From IMG/VR virus record IMGVR_UViG_3300017956_000075, positions 1 through 30,729 of that record: a stretch of 30,729 bases of DNA; one strand, written 5' to 3'. Shown piece after piece: positions 10,038-28,746 of the stretch. Within the stretch, counting starts at the first letter, position 1. Each line of letters opens with the position of its first letter. A program made the position numbers and the translations under genes. Source of the DNA: a virus. The notes under the pieces were generated by a model. That model was not told where the DNA came from, ran no database searches, and saw only the letters and a program-made list of their open reading frames with translations.

Positions 10038-10402
10038 TGGCAGCTAATGGCACATATAAAAATCCTTCAACAAAAGATTGCTGGAGATTTTGTTCATCTT
10101 GCAATAGGTGTGGCGATAAAGGTAAGTACGCAAAGTGCGCAGATTGTAGTGGCAGATACGATCCCTCTGGAAGAATAGATCCTCATCCAGATGACTTCTG
10201 CCAGTGTACAGAAGGGGTATTGAGATGGAGAACTCAAGAGGGCAGAGTAATAATAACTAAGTTCAGAAGTGATCCATTTGCCGGTGAAGTAAAGTATCAG
10301 AAGAAGTCTGAAGACGAAAGAGACTGGGATTCCTATGTAGCAGACATGAGAGAGAAAATGAATGATCCAAATTGGAATCCAATAACAATTTACGAGGAGT
10401 AA
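10037..10402 (+). CDS. Cys-rich putative zinc-binding protein
   Basis: A 121-aa protein whose first 60 residues hold eight Cys in CxxC-like spacings (CWRFCSSCNRC, CADC, CQC), suggesting one or two structural zinc sites. The rest is charged (KKSEDERDWDSYVADMREKM) and ends in a Trp/Asn/Pro segment. The ATG overlaps the polymerase stop (TAATG). No family is recognised; single-strand binding or polymerase accessory roles are only possibilities. Confidence 0.75.
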   Translation: MAANGTYKNPSTKDCWRFCSSCNRCGDKGKYAKCADCSGRYDPSGRIDPHPDDFCQCTEGVLRWRTQEGRVIITKFRSDPFAGEVKYQKKSEDERDWDSYVADMREKMNDPNWNPITIYEE

Positions 10403-10404
10403 CT

Positions 10405-10599
10405 ATGTATGAACTACTAGATATTAGTTTGGGAAATTTTAAGATTACAGAATATATCAATAAATCCACCCAAGAGGTTGAAAAGATATATATCCAAAAT
10501 GGAATAGTAGGCTTCTATGCCTCAGAAGAAGAGATCAAGGATCTTTGCACTCTATTGAATTACTATATAGATATCGAAAAGATAAACGATATTAGATAG
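10405..10599 (+). CDS. Hypothetical 64-aa protein
   Basis: A small acidic protein (MYELLDISLGNFKITEYINK...) predicted as beta hairpin plus helix (EEEIKDLCTLLNYYIDIEKI). The ATG at 10405 is supported by GAGGAG at 10394-10399; the frame is open earlier, but that part overlaps the preceding gene. No function is recognised. Confidence 0.7.
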   Translation: MYELLDISLGNFKITEYINKSTQEVEKIYIQNGIVGFYASEEEIKDLCTLLNYYIDIEKINDIR

Positions 10600-10607
10600 G
10601 AGAAACT

Positions 10608-10772
10608 ATGTGGCCAAGATTGGAAGATGATCATATGGAAATTGGTGAGACAGGATGGATTCCTGTCGGCCAAGGCTGTTATTTGAACTTTAAAAATAAT
10701 CATACAATAGATGAAATAGGCAGAGAATTTGATGAAAATGGAGTCATAATCTATGACCCAAATGAAGAGTAG
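10608..10772 (+). CDS. Hypothetical 54-aa protein
   Basis: An acidic protein starting MWPRLEDDHMEIGETGW and ending YDPNEE. The binding site ATAGGAGA at 10597-10602 lies six bases before the ATG, and the gene exactly fills the space between its neighbours. No domain is recognised. Confidence 0.7.
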   Translation: MWPRLEDDHMEIGETGWIPVGQGCYLNFKNNHTIDEIGREFDENGVIIYDPNEE

Positions 10773-10777
10773 TTCTT

Positions 10778-10782
10778 AGGAG
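10778..10782 (+). promoter_or_regulatory. Shine-Dalgarno pointing at an ATA codon
   Basis: AGGAG stands 7 bases upstream of ATA at 10790. No in-frame ATG, GTG or TTG exists between the upstream in-frame stop (10763-10765) and 10877. Confidence 0.6.
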
Positions 10783-10789
10783 TAATAAA

Positions 10790-11575
10790 ATAGAAATATT
10801 AAACGTAGATTACATTAGTGAATTTAAAAAATTATCTTTAGTAGATTTTTCCTATTCTAGAATAGACACATATAACATGTGTCCTGCAAAATACTTTTAT
10901 TCTTACATATCAAAAGAGCCCAGGCAGTTTGCACCAGCAGCTGTATTAGGAAATATAGTTCACGAAGTTCTTGAGAATACACTGGACAATAATAAGGAAC
11001 TGGATCTAGAAGAGCTTAAGTCTGAGTATACTAAAACTATACCTAAGTGGGATCCTACAGGCCTTATACCTGAGCAGCTCCTTGATGCTGGTAATGTCAT
11101 TATAGATGAATTTTACGATACAAATTCCGGCATGCCGCTGAGCATATACGCCAAAGAAATGGGATTTGAATTAATTATAGGCTCTTATGTTGTTCGTGGT
11201 TACATAGACAGAGTAGATGTCACTGGCGATAGAGTTTCAATTATAGATTATAAGACTGGTAAGTGGGAGATTTCTAATAAAGAAATACCAAATAGTCTCC
11301 AGCTAGGAATATACGCCCTAGCTGCTCAGGAGATATTTCCAGGAAAAGAGATATACGCAGAAATGTATTATCTTAGATCAGGAAGAAGAAAAGGTCACCT
11401 CTTCACCAAAGAAGACATAGAAAGAGTTAAGGTTAACTTAGTTAATTCTATGAATAATATTATAAATGATCAGAACTTTACACCCACATCAAACGGTAGG
11501 GTTTGCTCCTTCTGCGATCATGCTAAATCTGGAGCATGTGCTACGGGTGCATTTAGGAACAGTAAAAGGGCATAA
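10790..11575 (+). CDS. Cas4/RecB-like [4Fe-4S] PD-(D/E)XK nuclease, probable AUA start
   Basis: A 261-aa nuclease if started at ATA. The Cas4-like elements are complete: FSYSRIDTYNMCP (C31), GNIVHEVLE (H58), RGYIDRVDV (D140), IIDYKTG (D153, K155), QLGIYAL (Q171, Y175) and the C-terminal CSFC...C cluster (C239, C242, C250). Members cut single-stranded DNA ends during recombination and repair. The first ATG (10877) would begin immediately before C31 and drop the conserved S-x-SRIDTY helix, so translation most likely starts upstream, where only ATA has a well-spaced Shine-Dalgarno. It ends the replication operon, just before a strong terminator. It is the intact counterpart of the eroded protein at 3715-4491. 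Confidence 0.85.
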   Translation: MEILNVDYISEFKKLSLVDFSYSRIDTYNMCPAKYFYSYISKEPRQFAPAAVLGNIVHEVLENTLDNNKELDLEELKSEYTKTIPKWDPTGLIPEQLLDAGNVIIDEFYDTNSGMPLSIYAKEMGFELIIGSYVVRGYIDRVDVTGDRVSIIDYKTGKWEISNKEIPNSLQLGIYALAAQEIFPGKEIYAEMYYLRSGRRKGHLFTKEDIERVKVNLVNSMNNIINDQNFTPTSNGRVCSFCDHAKSGACATGAFRNSKRA

Positions 11576-11613
11576 AAATAGCGGGGAGCCGATTTCTCAA
11601 CTCCCCGCTATTT
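11576..11613. terminator. Bidirectional intrinsic terminator
   Basis: A 13-bp stem (AAATAGCGGGGAG at 11576-11588 with 11601-11613) and a 12-base loop sit between converging genes. The minus strand has a T run after the stem (TATTTTTATG); the plus strand has a shorter one. It closes the replication operon and the reversed small gene. Confidence 0.85.
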
Positions 11614-11626
11614 CTAGTAATGAATA

Positions 11627-11800
11627 TCAGAAGTCAGTAACTTCGTTGTCAATTGAATCCTGAATGAGATCGAAGTCTTCGAACTCGGTTACAACTTTAA
11701 CTGCTCGCTCACGATCAAATCCAGTTGATATTAGATCATTGATTGTCTGCTCGTTGATCTTGTTAACGATGCTGTTGGTGAGTTGGTTAAGTGTATTCAT
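11627..11800 (-). CDS. Reversed small gene, 57 aa, possible regulator
   Basis: The only reverse-strand gene outside the right end. The frame opens at 11866, but the ATG at 11800 follows AAGAGGT and lies downstream of a plausible promoter. The product (MNTLNQLTNSIVNKINEQ..., ending NEVTDF) is acidic and helical, with ISTGFDRERAVKVV resembling a small three-helix domain. It is transcribed away from the second operon, from a promoter overlapping that operon's promoter. An early or regulatory role is therefore reasonable but unproven. No family is recognised. Confidence 0.65.
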   Translation of the reverse strand: MNTLNQLTNSIVNKINEQTINDLISTGFDRERAVKVVTEFEDFDLIQDSIDNEVTDF

Positions 11801-11824
11801 TTTTTGTACCTCTTTCTTAGGTGT

Positions 11825-11853
11825 TTGTATTTTTTTATTTTCTGTTGTATAAT
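11825..11853 (+). promoter_or_regulatory. Sigma-70-like promoter of the second operon
   Basis: TTGTAT at 11825-11830 and a perfect TATAAT at 11848-11853 are separated by 17 bases. This predicts a start near 11860 and a 5' leader of about 33 bases before the ATG at 11893. Confidence 0.75.
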
Positions 11854-11876
11854 ATAAGGTACTCATACGTTTACAA
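11849..11876 (-). promoter_or_regulatory. Overlapping divergent promoter for the reversed gene
   Basis: On the minus strand, TTGTAA (complement of 11871-11876) and TATTAT (complement of 11849-11854) are spaced 16 bases apart. Its -10 element overlaps the -10 of the plus-strand promoter, so the two should compete. Confidence 0.5.
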
Positions 11877-11883
11877 GTGTAAA
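11870..11883. promoter_or_regulatory. Palindrome, candidate operator
   Basis: TTTACA-AG-TGTAAA is a 6-2-6 inverted repeat. It covers the -35 of the minus promoter and lies just after the predicted plus-strand start, well placed to regulate both. Whether a protein binds it is unknown. Confidence 0.4.
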
Positions 11884-11892
11884 GGATATCAT

Positions 11893-12459
11893 ATGGAACT
11901 CAACCTTGTCGAGCCAAAACAGTTTTTTCTGGAAAAATCTTCCTTCAAAAAACATCCCAACATGAATAATATCAGAAACAAAGCGATTGCAACCGAAGTC
12001 ATCGACAATGATGGGGTTAGGCAAAGGGGATCCGGCAACGCCTACAGGTACACAAAGACTGGGGTTAGAAAAGATCTAGGCATGAGTTTTAGATCCAGTT
12101 GGGAGGCAAACTTTGCACGCGTGCTTAATCTGTATAAGGTTGAGTTTGATTTTGAACCTACAGTTTTCCCCTTTCCAATAAAAAGGGGAACAAAAGCCTA
12201 CACTCCAGATTTTTTTCTTCCAAGAAATGAAGACTGGATAGAAATAAAAGGATATCTAGACGATAAAAGTAAGATAAAATTAAAAAGATTTAAAAGATAT
12301 TATCCAGAAGAGTTTACTAAGCTTACCTGCGTTATAGGTAAATATTCTAGAGATGCTAAAAACTTTATGAGTGACTTAGAAGTTCCCGAAATTATTTTCT
12401 ACGAAGATATAAGGGATAATTACTCCGAGTATCTTATACATTGGGAAGGAAAAAAGTGA
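11893..12459 (+). CDS. T7 endonuclease I-like nuclease
   Basis: A 188-aa PD-(D/E)XK nuclease resembling the phage T7 endonuclease I Holliday-junction resolvase. The core reads FRSSWEANFARVLN (E71), FDFEPTVFPF, YTPDFFLP (D106) and DWIEIKG (E117, K119), then a Lys-rich helix (DDKSKIKLKRFKRYYP). Such enzymes cut branched DNA during recombination and before packaging. About 60 residues precede the usual start of the domain, with RGSGNAYRYTKTGVRKDLG as the recognisable part. ATG at 11893 follows AAAGGA; the frame upstream is promoter. It is the first gene of the second operon and overlaps the sigma factor start. Confidence 0.8.
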   Translation: MELNLVEPKQFFLEKSSFKKHPNMNNIRNKAIATEVIDNDGVRQRGSGNAYRYTKTGVRKDLGMSFRSSWEANFARVLNLYKVEFDFEPTVFPFPIKRGTKAYTPDFFLPRNEDWIEIKGYLDDKSKIKLKRFKRYYPEEFTKLTCVIGKYSRDAKNFMSDLEVPEIIFYEDIRDNYSEYLIHWEGKK

Positions 12460-13316
12460 AGCCAAAGAAAAGTTATAAAGAACAATATTATTCTCTAGAA
12501 GAAGAGGAGATGCAAAGCCTGATAGCGCGAGCAAAAACTGGATCAGGAAAAGATCAAGAAGAGTTGGTAAAGGTTTTTAATAATTTCCTCACCAAGTATT
12601 CTACAATGCTTTACCACGGAAAGTATAATCTTAATGACTACGATATTCGAAGGTTTATATCTTTATTCATAAAAGATCCTGGAACAAGATTTTCTTTGAT
12701 GAAGCAGAAGTTCAATTCAAATGTAATAAAAAACGTTAACGAATGTATGCGTGGTATAAATTACATGGCAAAAAGATATGGCGACGAAGAGGACATCAGG
12801 CAGACTGTTGATATGACGTTTTTTCAATGTATAGAAAGGTACGAAAGAAAAGGTCCAATTCCTTTTAGTGGTTTTTTGTACAGTTATTTCTTTTATCTCC
12901 TAAAGAAAAATGTTGATACCTTTTTAATAGATCAGTTGGGCAGGAAAACCTTCCCTCTGTTGGCAGATGAATCTGGTAGTGATGAAAATTCTGATGAAAA
13001 CACAGTAGGATTTAAAGCCGACCCTGTGGAATACAGTATGGAGCAAATGCTGTACGCGGATAAGATAGATGAATTCTGGGTCTTGGGGGAAAACAATATG
13101 GAACCTTTCAATATCCTGTCGGTTCAAGAGAGGCAACTTTTGAAGTGGAGATATGTAGACGGTATGAGATCTAGTCAAATATCTGCTAGAATAAACGAGC
13201 ATCCAAACACAGTTAGGGAGCACCTAGTGAAGATAAGAGGTAAGATTAAGGAAGCTATTATGAACGACGATTTTAACGAGTTTGCATTCTTAATCAAAAT
13301 GGAGAAAAAAAATTGA
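12456..13316 (+). CDS. Sigma-70 family transcription factor
   Basis: A 286-aa protein with two sigma-like domains. Region 2 lies near residues 105-150 (DEEDIRQTVDMTFFQCIERY, then FSGFLYSYFFYLLKKNV). Region 4 lies near 218-265 (LSVQERQLLKWRYVDGM, then SSQISARINEHPNTVREHL), a clear helix-turn-helix. An acidic linker (ADESGSDENSDEN) joins them. Such a factor would redirect host RNA polymerase to phage promoters, probably for later genes. The start is taken as GTG 12456 (GTGA overlap, GGAAGGA upstream) rather than TTG 12441. Region 2 is diverged, so a related regulator of another type is possible. Confidence 0.75.
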   Translation: MKPKKSYKEQYYSLEEEEMQSLIARAKTGSGKDQEELVKVFNNFLTKYSTMLYHGKYNLNDYDIRRFISLFIKDPGTRFSLMKQKFNSNVIKNVNECMRGINYMAKRYGDEEDIRQTVDMTFFQCIERYERKGPIPFSGFLYSYFFYLLKKNVDTFLIDQLGRKTFPLLADESGSDENSDENTVGFKADPVEYSMEQMLYADKIDEFWVLGENNMEPFNILSVQERQLLKWRYVDGMRSSQISARINEHPNTVREHLVKIRGKIKEAIMNDDFNEFAFLIKMEKKN

Positions 13317-17189: not shown

Positions 17190-17966
17190 ATGAAAATACA
17201 TAGTCTCCCAGGTGAAGTTATATACATTGAAGATGTATTTTTGCATTCACGAAAATTTATAACTGCAATAGAAGAAAATAACGAAAATCAAGAAATACAT
17301 AGCGTTATTCCAGCTTGGGAACACTGGGCTGATGGTGGTCCCGTTAGCCTGGATGCCAATGATCCAACTAAATGGCTGCAGGTCATACCAGACACATATA
17401 GCGCTGTAAGAGGTGTGTCAAAAAATTTTGACTGGGACACATCAATAAATAATAATAATTCTATTTGGCCAAGGATAGCAGTCGAAAATAATTACGACAG
17501 GGCACATGAGATTTCCGCCGAAATAATATCACTAATTGAAGACGATTACATTAAGGCATTGGATGTATGGTCGCATATTACTGGCCATAAAGTTCCGGAA
17601 TACATTACCAGAAATTATTGCGTAAGAAAATATAGGACTGGTGGCTCAATGGGAGCACATGTAGATAGGAATGTATCCAATCCATTAAACACAATGGACT
17701 GGACTTCATTAATATATCTTAATGATGATTATGAAGGTGGTGAAATATATTTTGACGACCTTGACATCACAATTAAGCCAAGCGCTGGTAGCATAATTTT
17801 CCTACCCTGCTTGCAGAGACACTCGGTTAACGAAGTTGCGAGTGGTAACAAGTATTATATATTCCTGTTTATGCATACGATGTACGACACTTCGACTGCA
17901 CTAGGTGAACCCTACCAAGGTATGAATGAGGCTATTATCAGGTATAGAAATTTGGAGAAAGTATAA
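17190..17966 (+). CDS. 2OG-Fe(II) oxygenase, prolyl-4-hydroxylase type
   Basis: A 258-aa oxygenase with the double-stranded beta-helix core at about residues 140-230. Iron ligands are H157 and D159 (MGAHVDRN) and H211 (QRHSVNEV), with YEGGEIYFDD and the strand GSIIFLP between them. The usual 2-oxoglutarate-binding Arg about ten residues after the last His is replaced by Lys (GNKYYIF, K221), which some relatives also show. The enzyme would hydroxylate a protein side chain or small molecule using O2 and 2-oxoglutarate. Its neighbours are basic proteins, so lysine- or proline-rich targets encoded nearby are possible (speculative). Confidence 0.85.
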   Translation: MKIHSLPGEVIYIEDVFLHSRKFITAIEENNENQEIHSVIPAWEHWADGGPVSLDANDPTKWLQVIPDTYSAVRGVSKNFDWDTSINNNNSIWPRIAVENNYDRAHEISAEIISLIEDDYIKALDVWSHITGHKVPEYITRNYCVRKYRTGGSMGAHVDRNVSNPLNTMDWTSLIYLNDDYEGGEIYFDDLDITIKPSAGSIIFLPCLQRHSVNEVASGNKYYIFLFMHTMYDTSTALGEPYQGMNEAIIRYRNLEKV

Positions 17967-19605: not shown

Positions 19606-20028
19606 GTGACTAAATTAGTGAATGTACGCTTAATTGATAGGTCAAATATTCTATCCAATGATGCCGTTCTTAGCGTTGTAGATGATATACCCTTTGATGT
19701 TAAGAGGATCTTCTATATCCATTCTGCAAGTACACACCAAGATAGGGGCGACCATGCTCATAGGTGTTGTCATCAAATTTACGTGTGTATTCGTGGTTCA
19801 ATTTTTGTTGAGTGTACAGACGGTAAAGAAACTGTAGGCTATACACTAACTGAGAATAGCGACTGCTTGCACATTCCGCCTATGGTTTGGTCTACAGAAA
19901 AAGGATTTGATAAAAACACCATTTTTCTGGTACTATGTTCAGAAATATATGATGAATACGATTACATAAGGTCGTTTGATATTTTCTTGGAGGAAAATTA
20001 TGAAAAAGAAAAAGAAAGTATGGGATAA
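19606..20028 (+). CDS. Cupin sugar 3,4-ketoisomerase-like (FdtA/QdtA, WxcM)
   Basis: A 140-aa single-domain cupin. The pattern RGDHAHRCCHQIYVCIRGS (H50, H52) plus CLHIPPMVWSTEKG and LVLCSEIYDEYDYIRSFDIF is diagnostic of dTDP-4-keto-6-deoxyglucose ketoisomerases, which isomerise the keto sugar on the way to amino-deoxy sugars found in surface glycans. The partner aminotransferase is absent from the window, so it would tap a host or elsewhere-encoded pathway. The start is uncertain (GTG 19606 or GTG 19618), as no good ribosome binding site is close. TATAAATA at 19593-19600 would allow a near-leaderless transcript. Confidence 0.82.
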   Translation: MTKLVNVRLIDRSNILSNDAVLSVVDDIPFDVKRIFYIHSASTHQDRGDHAHRCCHQIYVCIRGSIFVECTDGKETVGYTLTENSDCLHIPPMVWSTEKGFDKNTIFLVLCSEIYDEYDYIRSFDIFLEENYEKEKESMG

Positions 20029-20167
20029 GCCATCTCCATCTAAAAAGCCAAGAAAGATGACAGCTAAGATGAAGGGTAGGGCTAAGGCAAGAGCTAAGGC
20101 AGCGGGTAGACCATATCCAAATCTTATAGATAATATGGCTGTAGCTAGAAAGAGAAGAAAGAAGTAG
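20000..20167 (+). CDS. Conserved basic phage protein
   Basis: A 55-aa protein starting MKKKKKVWDKPSPSKKPRKM, with AKMKGRAKARAKAAGRPYPN and LIDNMAVARKRRKK. The KVWDKP opening and AKARAKxAGRPYPNLxDN core form a compact family common in phages, of unknown role. TTGGAGG precedes the ATG, and it overlaps the ketoisomerase end by 29 bases. Confidence 0.78.
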   Translation: MKKKKKVWDKPSPSKKPRKMTAKMKGRAKARAKAAGRPYPNLIDNMAVARKRRKK

Positions 20168-20178
20168 GTTAACCCTTC

Positions 20179-20385
20179 ATGGAAGCAAGTGGTTTTGATG
20201 GCTTTATGCCGTCCCTGCATAGTTTGGATGTTTCTCCACCTACATCAATGATTACGACTGATGGGGATGTGATAGATGGTCACACAATAAAGTTAACTTT
20301 GGGGGATAATTCAGAGGTGTTTTTTTCTTGCACTCAAGATCAATTACAGAGATTATTCTTTCTTATACTAAAAGTATCATCTTAG
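20179..20385 (+). CDS. Hypothetical 68-aa protein
   Basis: The protein MEASGFDGFMPSLHSLDVSP... has a C-terminal half of alternating strands (TIKLTLGDNSEVFFSC) and a helix (DQLQRLFFLILKV). It resembles small phage proteins near structural genes but is unassigned. The binding site is poor (GGTTAACCC), so expression is less certain. Confidence 0.5.
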   Translation: MEASGFDGFMPSLHSLDVSPPTSMITTDGDVIDGHTIKLTLGDNSEVFFSCTQDQLQRLFFLILKVSS

Positions 20386-20409
20386 TGTGATATACTAATT
20401 GGGTAAATA

Positions 20410-20499
20410 GGAGAGGTGCCAGAGCGGCCAAATGGGACATCCTGCTAAGATGTAGAGGGCGCTTGTCCTCCGTGGGTTCAAATCCCACCCTCTCCGCCA
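20410..20499 (+). tRNA. tRNA-Ser (anticodon GCU)
   Basis: A complete type II tRNA. The 7-bp acceptor stem GGAGAGG pairs with CCTCTCC, the anticodon stem is ACATC/GATGT with loop CTGCTAA (anticodon GCT at 20444-20446), a long variable arm follows (AGAGGGCGCTTGTCCTC), and the T arm is GTGGG/CCCAC with TTCAAAT. The discriminator is G and CCA is encoded. It reads AGC/AGU codons, which are frequent in the + strand genes. It may also act as an integration or recombination site, but nothing here shows that. Confidence 0.97.
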
Positions 20500-20519
20500 A
20501 CGAAAGTTAGGTATAAAAT

Positions 20520-21275
20520 ATGGCTAAAATATTGTATTACGATATAGAAACCGCTCCAAATCTTAGTTATGTTTGGGGTCAGTATGAGCAAAATGTTATA
20601 GACCACGAAAGAGAGTGGTACATACTTTGTGTTTCTTATCGTTGGGAGGGCGACAAGAAAACCCACGTTTGTTCATTGGTTGATTTTCCTGAGGCATATA
20701 AAAAAGATCCAGAAAATGATTACCATGTAGTAAAAAAAATGTGGGACCTCATAGACGAAGCAGATATAGTTGTCGCTCATAACGGTGATCGATTTGATAT
20801 GCGTAAGGCTAATGCTAGGTTTATCTACCATGAAATGGGTCCTACTTCACCAGTAAAGCAAATAGACACCCTAAAGATAGCTAGAAGATATTTTATGTTT
20901 AACAGCAATAAGCTGGATCACCTAGGCTCCTACCTTGGTGTTGGGCGCAAGGTTAATGCTGGTGGGTTTGAGACCTGGGCCGGATGCATGCGTGGTGATT
21001 TGAAGTCTTGGAAAACCATGATTAAATACGCACGTCAAGATGTTGATCTTCTTAGAGATGTGTATATGAAACTTCGCCCTTGGGCCACTAATCATCCGAA
21101 TCTTAATGTATACGATGGAGGGTGCGATTGCCCTACGTGTGGCTCAGGTAATCTTCAGAAGCGTGGATTTAGATATACCCAAGTTGCCACCTATCAGCAG
21201 TACTACTGCAATGACTGTGGTGCTTGGAGTAGAGATAGACTAATGGAAGACGTAACTCGCCCAGATCTGGTATAA
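20520..21275 (+). CDS. DnaQ-like 3'-5' exonuclease with zinc ribbon
   Basis: A 251-aa exonuclease with RNase H fold of the DEDD class: D8 and E10 in YYDIETAPN, D93 in AHNGDRFDMRKANARF, and D174 in YARQDVDLLRDVY. It resembles the exonuclease domain of family B polymerases, here free-standing. The C-terminal 50 residues form a zinc ribbon (C204, C207, C230, C233 in CPTC...YYCNDC), giving a nuclease plus nucleic-acid-binding architecture. It may proofread for the DnaE polymerase or process DNA ends. Confidence 0.85.
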   Translation: MAKILYYDIETAPNLSYVWGQYEQNVIDHEREWYILCVSYRWEGDKKTHVCSLVDFPEAYKKDPENDYHVVKKMWDLIDEADIVVAHNGDRFDMRKANARFIYHEMGPTSPVKQIDTLKIARRYFMFNSNKLDHLGSYLGVGRKVNAGGFETWAGCMRGDLKSWKTMIKYARQDVDLLRDVYMKLRPWATNHPNLNVYDGGCDCPTCGSGNLQKRGFRYTQVATYQQYYCNDCGAWSRDRLMEDVTRPDLV

Positions 21276-21276
21276 T
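21271..21276 (+). promoter_or_regulatory. Candidate -10 box for a leaderless transcript
   Basis: TATAAT ends seven bases before the ATG at 21284, so transcription would begin at the start codon. No Shine-Dalgarno is present in front of that gene. The -35 region is weak. Confidence 0.5.
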
Positions 21277-21283
21277 TAGTTAT

Positions 21284-21964
21284 ATGGATGATTGGTATAA
21301 AAATACAGCAGTGTACACATCTGTATTTGGTGGTTATGACTATCATGGACCTCAGTTGATGGTAGATGGTGTGGATTATTTCTATATAACTGATGGTGTT
21401 AGCGATCCTCCTTCAGAGATAGGTTGGAATATTGTACATAGAAAATATAGTGATTCTCTAGATAATAGACGTAAAGCAAAAGTGCCAAAGTTAAATCCGC
21501 ATAGCTTTGATTTCTTGCGTAAGTACAGGTATCTAATATGGATAGATGGAGACATGCAAATAGTTTCCGAGAATTTCGTTCCAGGAATACTAAGCTTTTT
21601 GGAAAATGGTATGGTTATATCTCCTCATTTTGACGGCAGAAAATGTGCGTATAGTGAGGCAACTATTAGGCCACAGAAATACGCCAAAGAGCCCTTAGAT
21701 GAACAGGTTGCATTTTATAGAAGCGAAGGCTTCCCTGAGGGTTTCGGACTCTATGAGTGTGGTGTTATGGCTAGAGACATGACCGCTCCACATGTTGAGG
21801 GTGTTGGTGAACTATGGTTAAGGCAAAATTTAAAATGGTCTTATCAGGATCAGGTAAGTCTTCCTTATGTTCTCTGGAAGACCAAATTTCAACCTGATAT
21901 TTTACCTACAAGTTTTAGATATATGAATTGGATTCATATTAACGCCCACAAAAGAGAAGATTGA
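21284..21964 (+). CDS. DUF616/TOD1-like glycosyltransferase
   Basis: A 226-aa GT-A-type enzyme. The opening TAVYTSVFGGYDYHGP, DYFYITDG and a DxD motif in YLIWIDGDMQI (preceded by KLNPHSFDFLRKYRY) match the DUF616 family of putative glycosyltransferases. The C-terminal half contains GLYECGVMARDM and YQDQVSLPYVLW, the expected acceptor-side segments. It is followed by a GT32-like enzyme and a methyltransferase-like protein, forming a glycan cassette. It may be translated from a leaderless mRNA. Confidence 0.75.
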   Translation: MDDWYKNTAVYTSVFGGYDYHGPQLMVDGVDYFYITDGVSDPPSEIGWNIVHRKYSDSLDNRRKAKVPKLNPHSFDFLRKYRYLIWIDGDMQIVSENFVPGILSFLENGMVISPHFDGRKCAYSEATIRPQKYAKEPLDEQVAFYRSEGFPEGFGLYECGVMARDMTAPHVEGVGELWLRQNLKWSYQDQVSLPYVLWKTKFQPDILPTSFRYMNWIHINAHKRED

Positions 21965-21966
21965 TC

Positions 21967-22644
21967 ATGTCTGCTAATGTGGATAGAGTAGTTTATTGTT
22001 TTTGGGTTGGCCACAATAATGTTGAAATGAACCAAAACAGAAAGAATGGCTTAGATTCTTTAATAAAGAATTCAGAAGTAAAAGTAAAACTTATTAATAA
22101 CGATAACCTAAGTAAATACATCTTAGATGATCACCCCTTGCACGAAGGGTTTGAGCATCTGTCCGATGTTCATAAAGCTGACTATCTTAGGACATACTTC
22201 ATGCACTTCTATGGTGGCGGTTATTCTGATATAAAACCATGCTCCTGGAGCTGGTTAAGTTACTTCGAAAAGCTAGAGCAATCAGATTGCTATGGAATAG
22301 GTGCACCTGAAGATGAATTTGAACTTAGTGTTACACCAAAGGTTAGACCTTGGATAGGTAAGTATTGGCAAAGGTTATTGACCAATGACTTATATATATT
22401 TAAAAAGCAGACTATTTTTACAGAAGCGTGGTACAATACGTTATTGTATTTGATGGATAATAAATTAGATAATCTAAAAAAATATCCAGCTAAAAATTCT
22501 AGGGAAGCAGCAGACACCCTTGCAACTAGGTACCCAATAGAGTGGGGGGAGATACTGCTTGAGGTTTTTCATCCACTATGTTATCTACACTCAGAAAAAT
22601 TGATAAAAGAAATGCCATATCCAATAACTTCCAATTACAGATAG
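21967..22644 (+). CDS. GT32-like (DXD sugar-binding) glycosyltransferase
   Basis: A 225-aa enzyme of the capsule/mannosyl-transferase type. The signature HLSDVHKADYLRTYFMHFYG with GGYSDIKP is the conserved D-x-x-R...YGG-x-Y-x-D motif that binds the sugar nucleotide and metal. The opening VVYCFWVGHNN is the usual first strand. The ATG at 21967 is preferred over TTG 21961. It is coupled to the DUF616-like gene and probably extends the same glycan. Confidence 0.8.
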   Translation: MSANVDRVVYCFWVGHNNVEMNQNRKNGLDSLIKNSEVKVKLINNDNLSKYILDDHPLHEGFEHLSDVHKADYLRTYFMHFYGGGYSDIKPCSWSWLSYFEKLEQSDCYGIGAPEDEFELSVTPKVRPWIGKYWQRLLTNDLYIFKKQTIFTEAWYNTLLYLMDNKLDNLKKYPAKNSREAADTLATRYPIEWGEILLEVFHPLCYLHSEKLIKEMPYPITSNYR

Positions 22645-22653
22645 GGATAAATA

Positions 22654-23196
22654 ATGACTTTAAAATATGATTTAGGTGGAATAGGTAGAGGTGGAGAATA
22701 TCAAACCGTTAACCTAGCTGAATCTGCGGATGTCAATAAGAATATAATGGAATTAGACTCATTTTGCGAAGATGATTCAGTTGATGAGTTTTTTTTATCT
22801 CATACACTTGAACATATTCCAATAACAGATTATAAAAACTTTCTTTTACACATGAAAAAGAAGTTAAAAGTTGGTGGTAAAATCAAGGTAATTCAGACTG
22901 ACGCTGGAAAGATAATGAAAATGTGGGTAGACGGAACTCTTTCGTTCAGAGCAATGAGAGCTCCAATTTTCACTCCAGCAACGAGATGTCAGTCAAATAT
23001 TCTTCAGCAGCATCAGAGCATGTGGTCTCAAGAAGAGCTAATGAAGGATTTTCAAATAATCGGTATGAAAGTAAGCTCTTTTGACGCAGGCGTATGGATG
23101 TATGATATGGACGATGATATAATACCTGAAGATACAAAAGAATATTATGGTACTCCGATTCCAAATCTCGGAGTTTTAGCAGAGAAGGTGAATTGA
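22654..23196 (+). CDS. Class I methyltransferase-like protein
   Basis: A 180-aa protein with the second half of a SAM-methyltransferase fold: EFFLSHTLEHIPITDY (the EH motif after strand 4), LKKKLKVGGKIKV (post-motif strand) and a C-terminal WSQEELMKDF / GVLAEKV pair. The nucleotide-binding N terminus is shortened to YDLGGIGRGGEYQTVNLAES, which is short for a Gly-rich motif I, so binding of the cofactor is uncertain. In this cassette a sugar or lipid O-methyltransferase is plausible. Confidence 0.65.
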   Translation: MTLKYDLGGIGRGGEYQTVNLAESADVNKNIMELDSFCEDDSVDEFFLSHTLEHIPITDYKNFLLHMKKKLKVGGKIKVIQTDAGKIMKMWVDGTLSFRAMRAPIFTPATRCQSNILQQHQSMWSQEELMKDFQIIGMKVSSFDAGVWMYDMDDDIIPEDTKEYYGTPIPNLGVLAEKVN

Positions 23197-23450: not shown

Positions 23451-24419
23451 ATGGGTAATCCTCGAGTAGTAAATCCTGACGGCAGCGAAATTGATGATCT
23501 AGCTAAGAAATTAATAGATCAACACGGCATAGATTCAGTTATAAATACCCCTATTGATCCAGATACAATGGACATAGATGAGATATTTGCAAGAGAAAGA
23601 GTGCAGGGTCAGGACTGGCTAGAGAAAAATACTGTACCAAAAGACCCATCTCCCACCAAAAAAGCAAATTCAGGTTTGTCTGACGCCGAAATTGAAAAAT
23701 TGCAAGCCGATTATGACGAATTTAAAACAAAACACCATGCCTACTTAGATGAGCTTGGTACCGTAAAAGAAAAAGACGGTGTTCCTTGGGACCAGTTGTC
23801 AAGGAAAGAGCAAGAAGATATCATGCAAGAACTTAAGTATAAGCATGGTGTTGACAAAGCGCCTCCGCCCCCCGCTCCTGCTCCTGCTACTGCCCCTGCT
23901 TCTCAGCCAGTAGCTCCTGCCCCTCAGTCGGGAAGCCCAGCAGGTGATGTCGTCATAAAAGATGGTAACGGAAACGTTGTACAGCAAAGTGGTGTAGACG
24001 CAAATGCTACTAGCAGAAATACTAGACCAGTAGGAAGAAGGGTTGACCCCAATCCACAGTCGGCTAGGGAGAGGCCTACTGTAAGAATGAACAGTCAGTC
24101 TGCAACGCAATCTTCTTCGGGTGGTGCACAAGCTAAAATTGTAACTGGGACAAATGCAACTACAACTACAGCAGCATCCACTGGTTCAAATGTTGCACCA
24201 CCTAGTTCTACAGCTAGAAAATCGGCCACAGTTCTTAGCGATATGTCTCAGGCTGTAACCAAAGGGTTTAAGGGATCTAAAAACCTTAGGGTAGCAGCAG
24301 CAGCTGCAGTACTTGGTGGGGGTGGTGCACTACTAGGTATGTCTAGGGGTAGGCAGCAAAGAGTTGAGGACATGGAAAGAAGGAGAGTCGAAATGCAAAG
24401 AAGAGGAGTTATATCATGA
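23451..24419 (+). CDS. Long disordered Pro/Ala-rich protein
   Basis: A 322-aa protein with an acidic N terminus (MGNPRVVNPDGSEIDDLA...), a helical stretch (LQADYDEFKTKHHAYLDEL), a Pro/Ala linker (APPPPAPAPATAPAS), a Ser/Thr/Gln-rich disordered region and a C-terminal Gly/Ala hydrophobic segment (RVAAAAAVLGGGGALLGM) with an Arg-rich end. Such build is seen in phage virion and scaffold-like proteins; no enzyme motif is visible. It has a good ribosome binding site (AGGAG) and its own candidate promoter, so it is likely made in quantity. Confidence 0.75.
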   Translation: MGNPRVVNPDGSEIDDLAKKLIDQHGIDSVINTPIDPDTMDIDEIFARERVQGQDWLEKNTVPKDPSPTKKANSGLSDAEIEKLQADYDEFKTKHHAYLDELGTVKEKDGVPWDQLSRKEQEDIMQELKYKHGVDKAPPPPAPAPATAPASQPVAPAPQSGSPAGDVVIKDGNGNVVQQSGVDANATSRNTRPVGRRVDPNPQSARERPTVRMNSQSATQSSSGGAQAKIVTGTNATTTTAASTGSNVAPPSSTARKSATVLSDMSQAVTKGFKGSKNLRVAAAAAVLGGGGALLGMSRGRQQRVEDMERRRVEMQRRGVIS

Positions 24420-24784
24420 GCCAAAAACATTTTTTATTTGATTTAGCCGAGTTCCTTGTTGAGATGGAAAAAGAAGAGATGGGGAAGCTTCATCCAGCTG
24501 AAAAACAGTTGGCAGATGCCCTACTTTCAATAGTTTCAAAGTACGGCAAGTTAGCTGACCGTGACGAAAAAGGTATATGGGTTGGTTATGAGGGTCCAGA
24601 AGAAAACGAGGATGCCAGCATTGGAGTTAAGTGTGCAAATTGCTATCTGCATGAATCTGAAAAAGTTTGCAAAATAGCTTCTGTTCAAATACATCCTGAA
24701 GGAAAGTGTAGATTAGCCGTTATTCCACCTGGTATGGTTTCAGTTAATGATGATGGTGATGATGATAAAGGCGAATATAAGTAA
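24416..24784 (+). CDS. Cys-rich protein, possibly HiPIP-like [4Fe-4S] binding
   Basis: A 122-aa protein. The first 50 residues are helical (FDLAEFLVEMEKEEMGK, then AEKQLADALLSIVSKYGKL), followed by VKCANCYLHESEKVC and HPEGKCRLAVIPPGM. Four Cys with G-x-C-R and a Pro/Gly end recall high-potential iron-sulfur proteins, but zinc is equally possible. An ATGA overlap couples it to the preceding gene, and it directly precedes the oxygenase cluster, which could need an electron donor (inference). Its acidic Asp-rich tail overlaps the start of the next gene. Confidence 0.55.
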   Translation: MSQKHFLFDLAEFLVEMEKEEMGKLHPAEKQLADALLSIVSKYGKLADRDEKGIWVGYEGPEENEDASIGVKCANCYLHESEKVCKIASVQIHPEGKCRLAVIPPGMVSVNDDGDDDKGEYK

Positions 24785-25475
24785 TATACATAGAATAAAA
24801 AACTTTCTTGATAAAGATTCCTACAGTTTCTTCTTATCGTTATTTAAGAATAATTATCATTTAAATAATCCAGACAATGTTGGTAGATCCATGTTGTCTC
24901 ACCACCATTGTATAGAAGATCAAGAACTTCTAGATCGCACCATGGACTACGCCAATAAGGTGGTGCAGCTGGCTAGTGAATTATTTGGTTTAGATTTAAT
25001 GGACCTTTCTGGTGTATCACTTAGAAACTGGAATCCTGGCGAGTTTCAGCCTCCTCATTCTGATTGTGAAGCTGATATTATTTTAAATAACAATAAGCTA
25101 GAAGTGGGTCCTTACTTTAATTTCTCATCGCTATTCATAGAGTACGCCGGACTAACCTACTTAAACAATGACTACTCAGGCGGTGCGATATATTTTCCTC
25201 AGCATGATTTAAAGATATATCCAGAGCCTAATGAGTTTATTGCATTTCCAGGTACTAAATATTACCTACATGGCGTAGAAGAAGTTCGTAGTGGTAAAAG
25301 ATATGTTATGCAGAATTTTATGACCAGTTTGAAGGCTAGATATATATGGGAAAATTTTGTTTTACCTGATCAGCCGATTACTTTCTCGTCTAAAACTTTG
25401 GACCAGGCGATGTATGAGAAGGTGTGCTATGATAGATCTAATATACCAGAACATTTTATTTTTAATAGGAGATAA
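24759..25475 (+). CDS. 2OG-Fe(II) oxygenase (P4H type)
   Basis: About 238 aa. The catalytic facial triad is H99 and D101 (QPPHSDCEAD) and H170 (YYLHGVEEV), with R180 (GKRYVM) for 2-oxoglutarate. The connecting strand LTYLNNDYSGGAIYFPQHDL is typical of prolyl-4-hydroxylase-like enzymes in phages. The start is unclear: ATGs at 24747, 24750, 24756 and 24759 lie in the Asp-rich tail of the preceding gene. An ATA at 24774 sits five bases after AAAGG, and the conserved fold begins only after residue 6. Confidence 0.82.
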   Translation: MMIKANISNIHRIKNFLDKDSYSFFLSLFKNNYHLNNPDNVGRSMLSHHHCIEDQELLDRTMDYANKVVQLASELFGLDLMDLSGVSLRNWNPGEFQPPHSDCEADIILNNNKLEVGPYFNFSSLFIEYAGLTYLNNDYSGGAIYFPQHDLKIYPEPNEFIAFPGTKYYLHGVEEVRSGKRYVMQNFMTSLKARYIWENFVLPDQPITFSSKTLDQAMYEKVCYDRSNIPEHFIFNRR

Positions 25476-25480
25476 AATTT

Positions 25481-26275
25481 ATGAGGATTATAAATATATC
25501 TGACTTAGGCGACTATAGTACTCCCGCCAGTCCTGAAAATATTTTTGTTATAGAGAACTTTATGTCCTTAGATGATGCGCAAAATCTTCATGAACTTTGT
25601 GATAAATCCCTGGAGGATCCAACCACTGATGAGTGGTGGTATAATAAGTTTCCTGGACCAGAGTATACTGAATATACTTTTGGAAGGTATAGGGAGCAGT
25701 GTGAAAAAAGTCTCATCAATTATCATGATGGTAAAAATCCACTTCTCAAAGAATATATGGATAAAGTTGTAGAACTTGTCAGCTTTATTGGCGGCAGAAA
25801 AGTTGTCCCAATGTTTCATTTTAACAGGCACAAGTCTGAGCCTGGAATCACATGTCCTGGCCATACAGATGCAGAGTCCCAAGGTCCTGACGGCATAAAT
25901 TATATGCTACATGACTATTCTCCCAATCATGTATACGAACCATCTGTTATAGAGTTTTCCGCAAATATATACCTAAACAACAATTACGAAGGCGGATCAT
26001 TATATTTTCCAGCATACGACATAAAAGTTGAGCATACTCCGGGTCAACTAGTGTTTTTCCCGGGAACCGTAGAGTACGTCCATGCTGTTGAAACAGTTTC
26101 AAACAAAACAAGATGGAATTTAATTAGCCATTTAAGTAGACCTAAACTGATTACTATGCATAGTACAATTCACAATATGTGGCACATGCTAGATTCTAAC
26201 CAAAGAATGCAATTTCCAGAAAATTGGGAAGATGGACCTAGGCCACGCGGAGTAAGGGAAGGTAATGTAAAATGA
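25481..26275 (+). CDS. 2OG-Fe(II) oxygenase (P4H type)
   Basis: A 264-aa oxygenase with H128 and D130 (CPGHTDAESQG), H201 (YVHAVETV) and R211 (KTRWNLISH). YLNNNYEGGSLYFPAYDI mirrors the same stretch in the neighbour at 24759-25475, so these are related but diverged genes. The stop overlaps the peroxidase-like start (ATGA), making a coupled unit. The substrate is unknown. Confidence 0.87.
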   Translation: MRIINISDLGDYSTPASPENIFVIENFMSLDDAQNLHELCDKSLEDPTTDEWWYNKFPGPEYTEYTFGRYREQCEKSLINYHDGKNPLLKEYMDKVVELVSFIGGRKVVPMFHFNRHKSEPGITCPGHTDAESQGPDGINYMLHDYSPNHVYEPSVIEFSANIYLNNNYEGGSLYFPAYDIKVEHTPGQLVFFPGTVEYVHAVETVSNKTRWNLISHLSRPKLITMHSTIHNMWHMLDSNQRMQFPENWEDGPRPRGVREGNVK

Positions 26276-26913
26276 CTGCTAACTATGTTGCTACTGATAA
26301 GCAAAAAAAATCTATATATGACATAAAAATCTCCAGTGCAGATGGCCTGGTGGATGATATAATGCAAAATTATAAGGGTAAGGTTACATTGATAGTTAAC
26401 ACTACTGGTCATTGTGGAAATGCTCCTCAGTTTGGGGTTATAGAAGAGGTTTACGCTAAATATAAAGACCAAGGCTTTGAGGTTTTGGCAGTTCCGACGA
26501 ATGATTATTGTGGACCTGGTGTTACATACGGAATATACGAAGATGGTATAGTCGATGCCGTTATGTCGCAGGAGTATGGCAGAAAAGAGTGGGGAGTTAG
26601 CTATGGCTTTAGTGAATTGGTTACTTCTCGTAGATCTAGAGATACCGATACGAAAGATCTTGATAGGGTCCCTCATGAGCTCTATGAAAATTTAAATCCA
26701 GAAGGAGAAGAATCTCCATTGTGGGGAAACTTTGAGAAGTTTTTAGTTGACAAGTCCGGTAAGGTTGTGTGGAGATTCCCCAATTGCACGCTGTTAAATT
26801 TTGGATATGATACAGGAATATGTGAAAAGCCTGAAGTTGAACTAATCGAGCTTGAAAGTAAGATAGTGGAACTTTTAAATGAAGAGTGGGATGGTGACAC
26901 CTATGCAGGGTAG
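26272..26913 (+). CDS. Glutathione peroxidase-like protein
   Basis: A 213-aa thioredoxin-fold protein. VTLIVNTTGHCGNAPQFG (C48 as peroxidatic Cys), GFEVLAVPTNDYCG (C80 replacing the usual NQFG-x-QEP segment) and PLWGNFEKFLVDKSGKVVWRF (W151, N153) match the glutathione peroxidase family, which reduces hydroperoxides. The usual active-site Gln is missing, and a Gly is inserted in the normal WNF. Cys at 80, 172 and 184 could act as resolving Cys. It lies between oxygenase genes, so it could protect the phage products or host from peroxide, or reduce a peroxidised intermediate. Confidence 0.78.
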   Translation: MTANYVATDKQKKSIYDIKISSADGLVDDIMQNYKGKVTLIVNTTGHCGNAPQFGVIEEVYAKYKDQGFEVLAVPTNDYCGPGVTYGIYEDGIVDAVMSQEYGRKEWGVSYGFSELVTSRRSRDTDTKDLDRVPHELYENLNPEGEESPLWGNFEKFLVDKSGKVVWRFPNCTLLNFGYDTGICEKPEVELIELESKIVELLNEEWDGDTYAG

Positions 26914-27700
26914 TCTAAAAGAAAATTTTGAAAGAGATGGTTTTATAATCATAGAAAATTTTTTTCCTGATCATGTTATTGACAAATATGTTTCTCTATG
27001 GAAAGAAGAGAACCATAATAGACCAGAAGGTTGGATGGACGGGGATAAGGGGGCGTCTGGCACCGCTTATCTAAAGCATCCAGAGGTTCTGGATATACTC
27101 TGCAGTAAAGATTTGGGTGATATCTTTGTCCAACTGGAAAAAGCTGTAGCTTTACATGTTGACATAACGTATAGTGTTAGCACCGAATTAGGTTGGCATC
27201 AAGATAATAATATGCCGCTAAAAAAATCCGGAGATAACTATATTGGCGTTTGGGTTGCTTTAGAAGATGTTGATCCAGAAGCCGGTCCGTTTCAATTTGT
27301 TCCTGGTTCTCACAACTGGGATATGGATTACGAATACTTGTGGAACAAGTCTATGAACGAAGGTGTTGGATTGGACTTGGAGAACGAAATGGAAAGAAGA
27401 GGCATAGGCGGCACCTCATTTATGGGTAAAAAGGGCGATGTTTTTATTTGGCACAGTAGATTGATTCATAGGGGTTCAGACATAATAGATAGATCAAAAA
27501 CTAGGATGTCACTGATAGGTCACTATTGCAACGACTACGCAAATATGGATGAGCATGAATCTATACCAGATTTTTCCTCAATGATTGACGACATGCTGAC
27601 TAAATCACTCAGATATGCTGAGTGGGGTGGTCTTGGGGCAATGTATTTTGTTAACCCTGATGTAACTGGCTATGACTATCCGGAGGAAGATAATGGTTAA
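26903..27700 (+). CDS. PhyH-family 2OG-Fe(II) dioxygenase, copy 1
   Basis: A 265-aa member of the phytanoyl-CoA dioxygenase family. It carries WHQDNNM (H99, D101), H189 (LIHRGSD) and R201 (SKTRMSL). The stretch GPFQFVPGSHNWDMDYEYL precedes the second half of the fold. It belongs to a broad group acting on lipids, antibiotics, halogenated or sugar substrates. ATG 26903 is chosen because its N terminus then matches the adjacent paralog; ATGs at 26879 and 26891 are alternatives. It overlaps the peroxidase-like gene and the next PhyH gene. Confidence 0.85.
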   Translation: MQGSLKENFERDGFIIIENFFPDHVIDKYVSLWKEENHNRPEGWMDGDKGASGTAYLKHPEVLDILCSKDLGDIFVQLEKAVALHVDITYSVSTELGWHQDNNMPLKKSGDNYIGVWVALEDVDPEAGPFQFVPGSHNWDMDYEYLWNKSMNEGVGLDLENEMERRGIGGTSFMGKKGDVFIWHSRLIHRGSDIIDRSKTRMSLIGHYCNDYANMDEHESIPDFSSMIDDMLTKSLRYAEWGGLGAMYFVNPDVTGYDYPEEDNG

Positions 27701-28472
27701 TGGTTCAATTGATTTAGATTTCTTTAATGAAAATGGCTTCTTTATTATAAAAAATGCAATTACAGAAGATAAGATAAATGCGTACTTAGATTTATGGAAC
27801 AGAGAGAATGCTGACAATCCTTCTGGGTGGAGTAATATAGGTGGTTCAGCAGCCGCATATCTAGAATACAGTGAAATATTAGATATTTTGTGCGATCCTA
27901 GCATTGCTAATGCTTTTGATGTGGCCGAGAAATCGGTAGCACTGCATGCCGATATAACCTATTCAGTTACTACCGAGCTTGAGTGGCATCAAGATAATTG
28001 TATGCCAAATGAAATAGCTGGGAGTAACTATATGGGTGTTTGGGTTGCCCTTGAAAATGTAGACGAAGATGCTGGACCGTTTGAGTTTGTTCCTGGTTCT
28101 CATAATTGGGATATGGATTACAACCTTTTATATGAGACAGCTGTTAAGGGAAGAGAGAATCCCGACCTTAATGATAAAAGAATTAAATATTATCAAGATC
28201 AAATAAATACTAGATCCGCAAAGGTTGAGAAGCTCTTAATAGAAAAAGGTGATGCCTTTATTTGGCATGGTAGATTAATGCATCGTGGATCACCAGCCGT
28301 AGATAGATCTAAGACAAGAATGTCCCTTATAGGTCACTATTGCAATAATTATGCTAACCTTGAAGAGGTTAGGAATCCTTCTTTTGACTTTCAGAAAAAA
28401 GAGATGTTTGAAGAAACTAGTAGGTATGCTAGCTGGGGCGAAAACGGTGCCTTTTATTTTGTAAATCCTTGA
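27693..28472 (+). CDS. PhyH-family 2OG-Fe(II) dioxygenase, copy 2
   Basis: A 259-aa paralog of the upstream gene, sharing most of the core: TELEWHQDNCM (H99, D101), YMGVWVALENV, GPFEFVPGSHNWDMDY, H197 (LMHRGSP), R209 and SKTRMSLIGHYCN. The main difference is residues 145-185 (ETAVKGRENPDLND...), probably the substrate lid. The ATG follows GGAGGA and overlaps the preceding stop. Tandem duplication with changed lids suggests two related substrates or two consecutive steps. Confidence 0.87.
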   Translation: MVNGSIDLDFFNENGFFIIKNAITEDKINAYLDLWNRENADNPSGWSNIGGSAAAYLEYSEILDILCDPSIANAFDVAEKSVALHADITYSVTTELEWHQDNCMPNEIAGSNYMGVWVALENVDEDAGPFEFVPGSHNWDMDYNLLYETAVKGRENPDLNDKRIKYYQDQINTRSAKVEKLLIEKGDAFIWHGRLMHRGSPAVDRSKTRMSLIGHYCNNYANLEEVRNPSFDFQKKEMFEETSRYASWGENGAFYFVNP

Positions 28473-28506: not shown

Positions 28507-28746
28507 ATGGAAAGATTACAATCAATTCTATTTAGAATACTAGCCGCATTTGCAGCTTCTGGCTTAAGCGTTATAGGGGCTGGTGCCATAGCAGGAGTCG
28601 AACTATGGAAAGCTGTTATGATGGCAGGTATAGGCGGTGTGGCTATGGTTATAGAGGGATTAGCTAGGGCTTATATGGATGACGGTATTTTAACCAAGGA
28701 AGAGATAGATGCCGTCTTTAATAAGGTGGATAAAAAAGCTAAGTAA
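28507..28746 (+). CDS. Second holin-like membrane protein
   Basis: A 79-aa protein with two hydrophobic helices rich in Ala and Gly (ILAAFAASGLSVIGAGAIAG and AVMMAGIGGVAMVIEGLA), as in small actinophage holins, then a polar tail DDGILTKEEIDAVF that resembles half an EF-hand. It is the second holin-like gene after the one at 19268 and directly abuts a reversed membrane-protein gene. GGAGGG lies before the ATG. Confidence 0.7.
   Translation: MERLQSILFRILAAFAASGLSVIGAGAIAGVELWKAVMMAGIGGVAMVIEGLARAYMDDGILTKEEIDAVFNKVDKKAK

Follow-up and report, generated by a model that had tools for sequence, protein, structure and literature searches.

Genes for Fe(II)/2-oxoglutarate (2OG) oxygenases and for a glutathione peroxidase (GPx)-like protein occupy a variable slot in the IMG/VR virus record IMGVR_UViG_3300017956_000075, the whole of which (30.7 kb; 30,729 nucleotides, ending inside a convergent gene for a Thr-rich protein) was analysed and is referred to here as the window. 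Comparison with related phages demonstrates the slot itself, its turnover between relatives, likely deletion scars, and a statistical link between genes for GPx-like proteins and for prolyl 4-hydroxylase (P4H)-type oxygenases. The cargo is a variant of known phage 2OG-oxygenase and reactive oxygen species (ROS)-defence cargo, and its main interest lies in the partnership of an altered GPx with P4H. Tentatively, and with a little less than an even chance of being correct, it may be regarded as an accessory "oxidative tailoring" set, equipped with a GPx-like redox partner, in a slot that is conserved within a lineage of large, uncultured tailed phages.

Organization and Turnover of the Slot

Six open reading frames (ORFs), all on the + strand, follow one another at 24416-28472 in the order Cys protein, P4Ha, P4Hb, GPx-like protein, PhyHa, and PhyHb, where an initial annotation of the sequence had placed an oxidative cassette of six consecutive genes mostly joined by overlaps. 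Four of the five junctions indeed overlap, by 38, 4, 35, and 29 nt, and P4Ha and P4Hb are separated by a gap of 5 nt; the start of P4Ha is uncertain because its homologue in the related locus L223 starts a few codons further on. The slot lies between the Cys gene and a small holin-like gene, and in the window it is filled by the genes from P4Ha through PhyHb:

24416..24784, + strand: Cys protein (CANC-x8-C-x12-C), left slot flank, outside the cargo; orthologues in 25 viral loci
24744..28471, + strand: variable cargo segment, from the pairwise DNA alignment of the window and L224
24747..25475, + strand: P4Ha, P4H-type Fe(II)/2OG oxygenase (PF13640), from Pfam and triad alignment
25481..26275, + strand: P4Hb, P4H-type Fe(II)/2OG oxygenase (PF13640), from Pfam and triad alignment
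26272..26913, + strand: GPx-like thioredoxin-fold protein, PHROG 5295, from Pfam GSHPx, PHROGs, and alignments
26879..27700, + strand: PhyHa, PhyH-family Fe(II)/2OG oxygenase, from Pfam, ligand alignment, and fold comparison
27672..28472, + strand: PhyHb, tandem duplicate of PhyHa (51%), from Pfam and ligand alignment
28507..28746, + strand: small holin-like membrane protein, right slot flank (PHROG 26427, also a weak holin match), in conserved order in relatives

A search with the Cys protein retrieved 25 viral loci. DNA homology between the window and the empty site of L224 ends at 24743 and restarts at 28472, and L224 retains a 62-nt scar together with apparent first codons of P4Ha (KANPDDI); the slot of L233 is also empty. 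P4Ha-P4Hb-GPx is found in L222 and L223, which like L224 are close relatives of the window and to both of which a PhyH 3' remnant is assigned, visible in L223 as a PhyH C-terminus (ending in GMYFINP and a stop) ahead of the holin-like gene. The slot holds ferredoxin-PhyH in L229 and ferredoxin-PhyH-BBOX-like-acyl-CoA dehydrogenase in L217 and L234-L236, and a fibre-like gene directly follows Cys (or Cys2) in L225, L227, and L228. In L217, which belongs to a 171-kb phage record, this set of four genes, whose BBOX-like member resembles gamma-butyrobetaine dioxygenase, is located at 9647-12978. The record G027 (154 kb), like L229 and L217 a more distant relative, is collinear with the window across the replication region and carries in inverted orientation an Ala-rich protein, Cys, Cys2, GPx, P4H, and PhyH, and directly opposite this cassette (L203, 8252-13233) are genes for a Trp halogenase, a carbamoyltransferase, and an Asp/Arg hydroxylase as well as two unassigned ORFs.

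The flanks of the slot are 87-89% identical between the window and L223, in contrast to 43-62% for the cargo (43% for P4Ha and 62% for P4Hb relative to the L222 homologues), and the cargo has therefore been exchanged or evolves faster. The simplest reading of these sequences would be an occupied ancestor followed by repeated deletions, the remnants being short, in which case the cargo would be dispensable. The Cys gene had been counted as a member of the cassette and is instead assigned to the flank, because it is present with or without cargo, persisting where the slot is empty, and adjoins portal-region genes in G007. Its product has four conserved cysteines, on which the reading as a possible Fe-S (HiPIP-like) protein is based, and shows no family match; the structure model (pLDDT 40) is of too low quality to assess the fold.

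Linkage between GPx-like and P4H-type Genes

Among viral contigs, 193 GPx relatives were identified, the best 80 of which gave 76 loci in 37 independent groups. P4H is the commonest GPx neighbour, occurring within 5 kb in 25 of the 37 groups, and it lies at most two genes from GPx in 18 of them against 10.0 expected (p ~2e-4) under a null of random positions in the same loci, which already includes local P4H density. A second null test agrees, with 12/19 GPx genes at most three genes from a P4H (3.8 expected; 15 records; p ~2e-4), the p value in both tests being the resolution limit of the simulations. The GPx-like protein of the window is 62% identical to that of L222 and 60% to that of L016. 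Since L016 has the same P4H-P4H-GPx order as the window and pairs this similar GPx with P4Hs of another subfamily, just 25-28% identical over short stretches, the unit recurs although its P4Hs have been exchanged. What recurs is thus the pairing of P4H and GPx, and not PhyH.

The grouping of cassette genes is beyond chance, because the gene types recur at the slot in other phages and GPx-P4H proximity exceeds expectation. Of the joint pathway that the initial annotation had proposed, a recurrent oxygenase-plus-redox cassette survives, while a single six-gene pathway gives way to modular cargo: the PhyH and P4H-GPx parts separate (L222 and L223 lack PhyH; in L229 and L234 the slot lacks P4H and GPx), some relatives have an empty slot, and P4H and PhyH genes occur elsewhere in the genomes. 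The suggested search for the same gene order accordingly retrieves the gene types together in L222/L223, L016 (P4H-P4H-GPx), and G027 (GPx-P4H-PhyH), with the full six-gene unit splitting. Scattering of the genes in homologous phages had been named as the observation that would speak against a joint system; such scattering is seen for P4Hs and PhyHs, yet GPx and P4H stay closer together than expected.

Larger arrays were also observed. At 7152-16503 of L041, many P4Hs, a TauD-like ORF, two GPx-like genes, and a DUF6065 protein gene lie near structural-looking genes, and at 142244-151316 of G009 (L212) at least 11 near-consecutive P4H genes stand beside four collagen-like fibre genes.

An Altered Active Site in the GPx-like Family

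The GPx-like protein matches GSHPx (2e-11, Pfam) and HYR1 (1.7e-13), so that "peroxidase-like", as it had been described, is apt for the fold. It is not apt for the active site, in which two of the four residues of the canonical Cys/Sec-Gln-Trp-Asn tetrad are replaced: Cys48 and Asn153 are retained, Asp78 and Gly152 take the positions of the catalytic Gln and Trp, and an extra Cys80 is present. These replacements also render doubtful the "peroxide handling" that had been suggested for the cassette.

Alignment of the phage relatives shows Cys48 and Asn153 to be invariant and Cys80 likewise, within a TN[DQ]-[YF]-C-G motif two residues beyond the catalytic Gln position, with Gly or Ala at the Trp position. 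Across the wider sample, Cys80 occurs in 87/95 phage family proteins versus 0/65 bacterial GPx, the catalytic Trp in 3/95 versus 65/65, and in 81/95 of the phage proteins Asp replaces the catalytic Gln. In the tree, a supported branch (99/92) separates the two-Cys family from a small divergent phage clade and from two canonical-looking phage GPx that nest with bacteria. The two-Cys family is thus specific to phages within this sample, and the name "peroxidase" should not be assumed to describe its activity. A cellular origin of the phage GPx was considered and rejected, the bacterial matches being canonical GPx of at most 40% identity. The GPx of the window and that of G027 sit together in the tree with weak support (95/68) and a very long branch, and because they are joined there the two are not called non-orthologous.

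The Oxygenases

Both slot P4Hs match PF13640 near the Pfam cut-off, P4Ha with an E-value of 8e-6 and 27.2 bits (cut-off 27) and P4Hb with 1e-5 and 26.8 bits, marginally below it; oxygenase-type PHROG families match them more clearly. The HxD motif and distal His align in P4Ha, P4Hb, and a third P4H outside the slot, followed ten residues further by the R/K that serves as the 2OG residue. In profile searches, the closest solved relative is collagen prolyl 3-hydroxylase P3H1 (E 1.4e-7), and the PKHD-type hydroxylase PiuC is also retrieved. The PhyH proteins match PF05721 strongly (PhyHa 8e-21, PhyHb 5e-20), are tandem duplicates with 51% identity, and share H107/D109/H197/R209, which are invariant across three phage PhyHs. 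These alignments bear out the earlier statement that the triads of all four Fe(II)/2OG oxygenases are intact.

The PhyH model, a rough guide with a mean pLDDT of 60 and a C-terminal part modelled without confidence, finds its nearest matches in SnoN/SnoK, the proline hydroxylase H11, EctD, GriE, and KanJ. No close PhyH relatives in phage isolates or viral contigs were retrieved by a single sequence or a two-sequence profile, and relatives surfaced only once the G027 PhyH joined the profile. The 2OG oxygenases at 24747-26275 and 17190-17966 match PHROG families 2297 and 274, which bear the label DNA endonuclease (V); these labels look like misannotation. A PADLOC scan for a defence or counter-defence system returned nothing specific, just a generic "2OG" CRISPR-associated profile.

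Genes around the Slot

Beyond the slot and its flanks, the following features of the window are relevant:

23451..24419, + strand: Ala/Pro-rich protein, its gene preceding that of the Cys protein; C-terminus similar in G027, absent in L222-L225
28914..30728, - strand: Thr-rich, FN3-like protein, convergent with the slot and truncated at the contig end; candidate surface substrate
17190..17966, + strand: third P4H-type oxygenase, outside the slot, from Pfam and triad alignment

The Thr-rich protein combines very long Thr runs (TTTTTTVP...) with FN3-like parts, and its G027 homologue, of 1442 aa, has a signal-peptide-like start, as in a secreted protein. Genes of the GT2, GT-D-like, FdtA, TOD1/MUCI70, and Caps_synth types are present in the window. 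A second variable block upstream of the slot, at 19606-23196, contains FdtA, TOD1/MUCI70, Caps_synth, and a methyltransferase-like ORF; different genes occupy this position in L223/L224, and the TOD1/Caps set of the window is found in L225. A tRNA-Ser (GCT) is located at 20410-20499, and structured RNA was looked for in the window with none found.

Proposed Function and Alternative Explanations

In the proposed oxidative tailoring, a surface-exposed product formed in the infected cell would be hydroxylated by P4Ha and P4Hb, and perhaps also by the two PhyH enzymes, with the help of Fe(II), O2, and 2-oxoglutarate. The candidate substrate would be a virion or secreted adhesion protein, such as the Thr-rich FN3 protein converging on the slot or the collagen-like fibre of L222/L223, or alternatively a glycan built by glycosyltransferases encoded nearby. 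The GPx-like protein, with two conserved cysteines replacing the normal tetrad, could act as a thiol-redox partner that keeps the oxygenases active by clearing peroxide from uncoupled turnover or by supplying electrons or exchanging disulfides, a role suggested by these cysteines and by the gene association with P4H. The most defensible view is the tailoring of a surface product, with protein likelier than glycan for the P4H-GPx unit and either substrate for PhyH. That the cargo diverges rapidly and is readily lost would fit an arms-race trait at adsorption better than a housekeeping step.

A collagen-like fibre gene lies shortly beyond the slot in L222/L223, and P4H arrays adjoin such genes in several GPx phages; arrays touching them number 5/11, with 2.1 expected (p 0.03), which makes the link between P4H arrays and collagen-like fibres suggestive. 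Collagen-like fibres were rejected as a universal substrate, the statistics being weak and the link not universal. Several observations weigh against the tailoring of a surface product: GPx itself shows no link to collagen-like fibres, G027 and the examined part of L217 yielded no collagen-like gene, and in the ~270-aa subclade many GPx genes lack an adjoining P4H. The PhyH fold, in the same low-confidence model, is nearest to small-molecule or antibiotic-tailoring hydroxylases, and together with the metabolic-looking cargo of L217 this implies that the slot may carry unrelated metabolic cargo.

In animals, protein disulfide isomerase serves in collagen prolyl hydroxylase. By analogy, the GPx-like protein might be a dedicated thioredoxin-fold redox subunit of phage P4Hs, the pair hydroxylating prolines of fibre or adhesion proteins. 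This narrower proposal is quite unlikely; if true, the pair would represent viral post-translational hydroxylation machinery in bacteria.

The oxygenases might instead decorate a host or phage sugar, amino acid, or lipid, altering the cell surface or a metabolite, with the glycosyltransferase genes giving the scaffold. The small-molecule enzymes nearest to the PhyH model, the GT2, GT-D-like, FdtA, TOD1/MUCI70, and Caps_synth genes, the halogenase, carbamoyltransferase, and Asp/Arg hydroxylase adjoining the G027 cassette, and the BBOX-like and acyl-CoA dehydrogenase genes of L217 all favour such tailoring. It is nevertheless judged somewhat unlikely, given that P4H and GPx, and not PhyH, make up the recurrent core, that the P4H profile indicates protein prolyl hydroxylases, and that glycosyltransferase genes vary independently, as in L225, which has the TOD1/Caps genes of the window and a slot without cargo. 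Lower still in probability, the slot could be an opportunistic hot spot gathering genes for oxygenases and redox proteins, each of which works on its own, with no common pathway. The separable combinations of PhyH, P4H, and GPx and the further oxygenases scattered across the same genomes are what this would predict, but the proximity of GPx and P4H exceeds a within-locus null that already counts local P4H density, and L016 keeps the P4H-P4H-GPx order with non-orthologous P4Hs.

According to published proposals, GPx would shield host or phage from ROS (PMC6802176) and the oxygenases would modulate 2-oxoglutarate (PMC3037559). The GPx fold and the retained peroxidatic Cys agree with oxidative-stress defence, which is nonetheless improbable here, as the family lacks the catalytic Gln and Trp and a general ROS defence leaves the specific pairing with P4H unexplained. 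TET/JBP-like hydroxylation of phage DNA is very improbable; a nucleobase had been listed among the possible targets, and the only indication of it is a P4Hb match to Tet_JBP (E 0.0076) whose 15.9 bits fall below the curated cut-off of 34.9 and which PF13640 surpasses. No Pfam-recognised DNA methyltransferase was present among the ORFs examined, the methyltransferase-like ORF at 22654-23196 being without a Pfam match.

The recurring partnership of P4H with an altered, phage-specific GPx offers a concrete handle, namely a small three-gene unit for expression and assay with natural deletion relatives as controls.

Host and Relation to Known Systems

The gene whiB is an actinophage marker (PMC6802176), and its occurrence in 8/15 GPx records indicates that the related GPx-bearing phages are probably actinophages. 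Because no whiB is present in the window, an actinobacterial host for the window is a lead and not a result; an actinobacterial helicase search for the host gave just generic DnaB-like matches (22-37% identity).

In the open-access literature, no description was found of a GPx/2OG-oxygenase phage cassette, of the P4H-GPx unit, or of the slot. T4-like cyanophages carry 2OG-Fe(II) oxygenase and PhyH genes (PMC3037559), with 24 copies in S-SCSM1, and 2OG oxygenases of phages abound in aquatic settings, with functions uninvestigated (PMC9602691). The cyanophage genes resemble those of the window in combining PF13640 and PF05721, in their many diverse copies per genome, and in exchange mainly within the phage gene pool, and cyanophages also have halogenase and carbamoyltransferase genes. 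They differ in that identity to the enzymes of the window is weak and that a GPx partner was not found described, whereas in the present phages a P4H-P4H-GPx unit is found, along with a defined slot that bears scars.

Among characterized proteins, P3H1 and PiuC are the top solved relatives of the P4H profile, but each phage P4H consists of one domain (240-265 aa) and lacks the other domains of P3H1. The phage PhyHs share fold and Fe/2OG ligands with PHYH, EctD, SnoN/SnoK, H11, and GriE, at less than 25% identity in the fold comparison. With the GPx family (GSHPx, BtuE, HYR1), the phage proteins have in common the fold and the peroxidatic Cys and Asn, and they depart from it in the change of Gln to Asp, of Trp to Gly or Ala, and in the extra conserved Cys. 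Glutathione peroxidase genes of freshwater phages have been interpreted as defence against oxidative stress by ROS (PMC6802176), and those uncultured phages are similar to the present ones in their GPx-family genes and in including whiB-bearing actinophages. The altered active site and the linkage to oxygenases described here are not predicted by the ROS-defence view, and phage GPx genes should therefore not be read as plain antioxidant defence.

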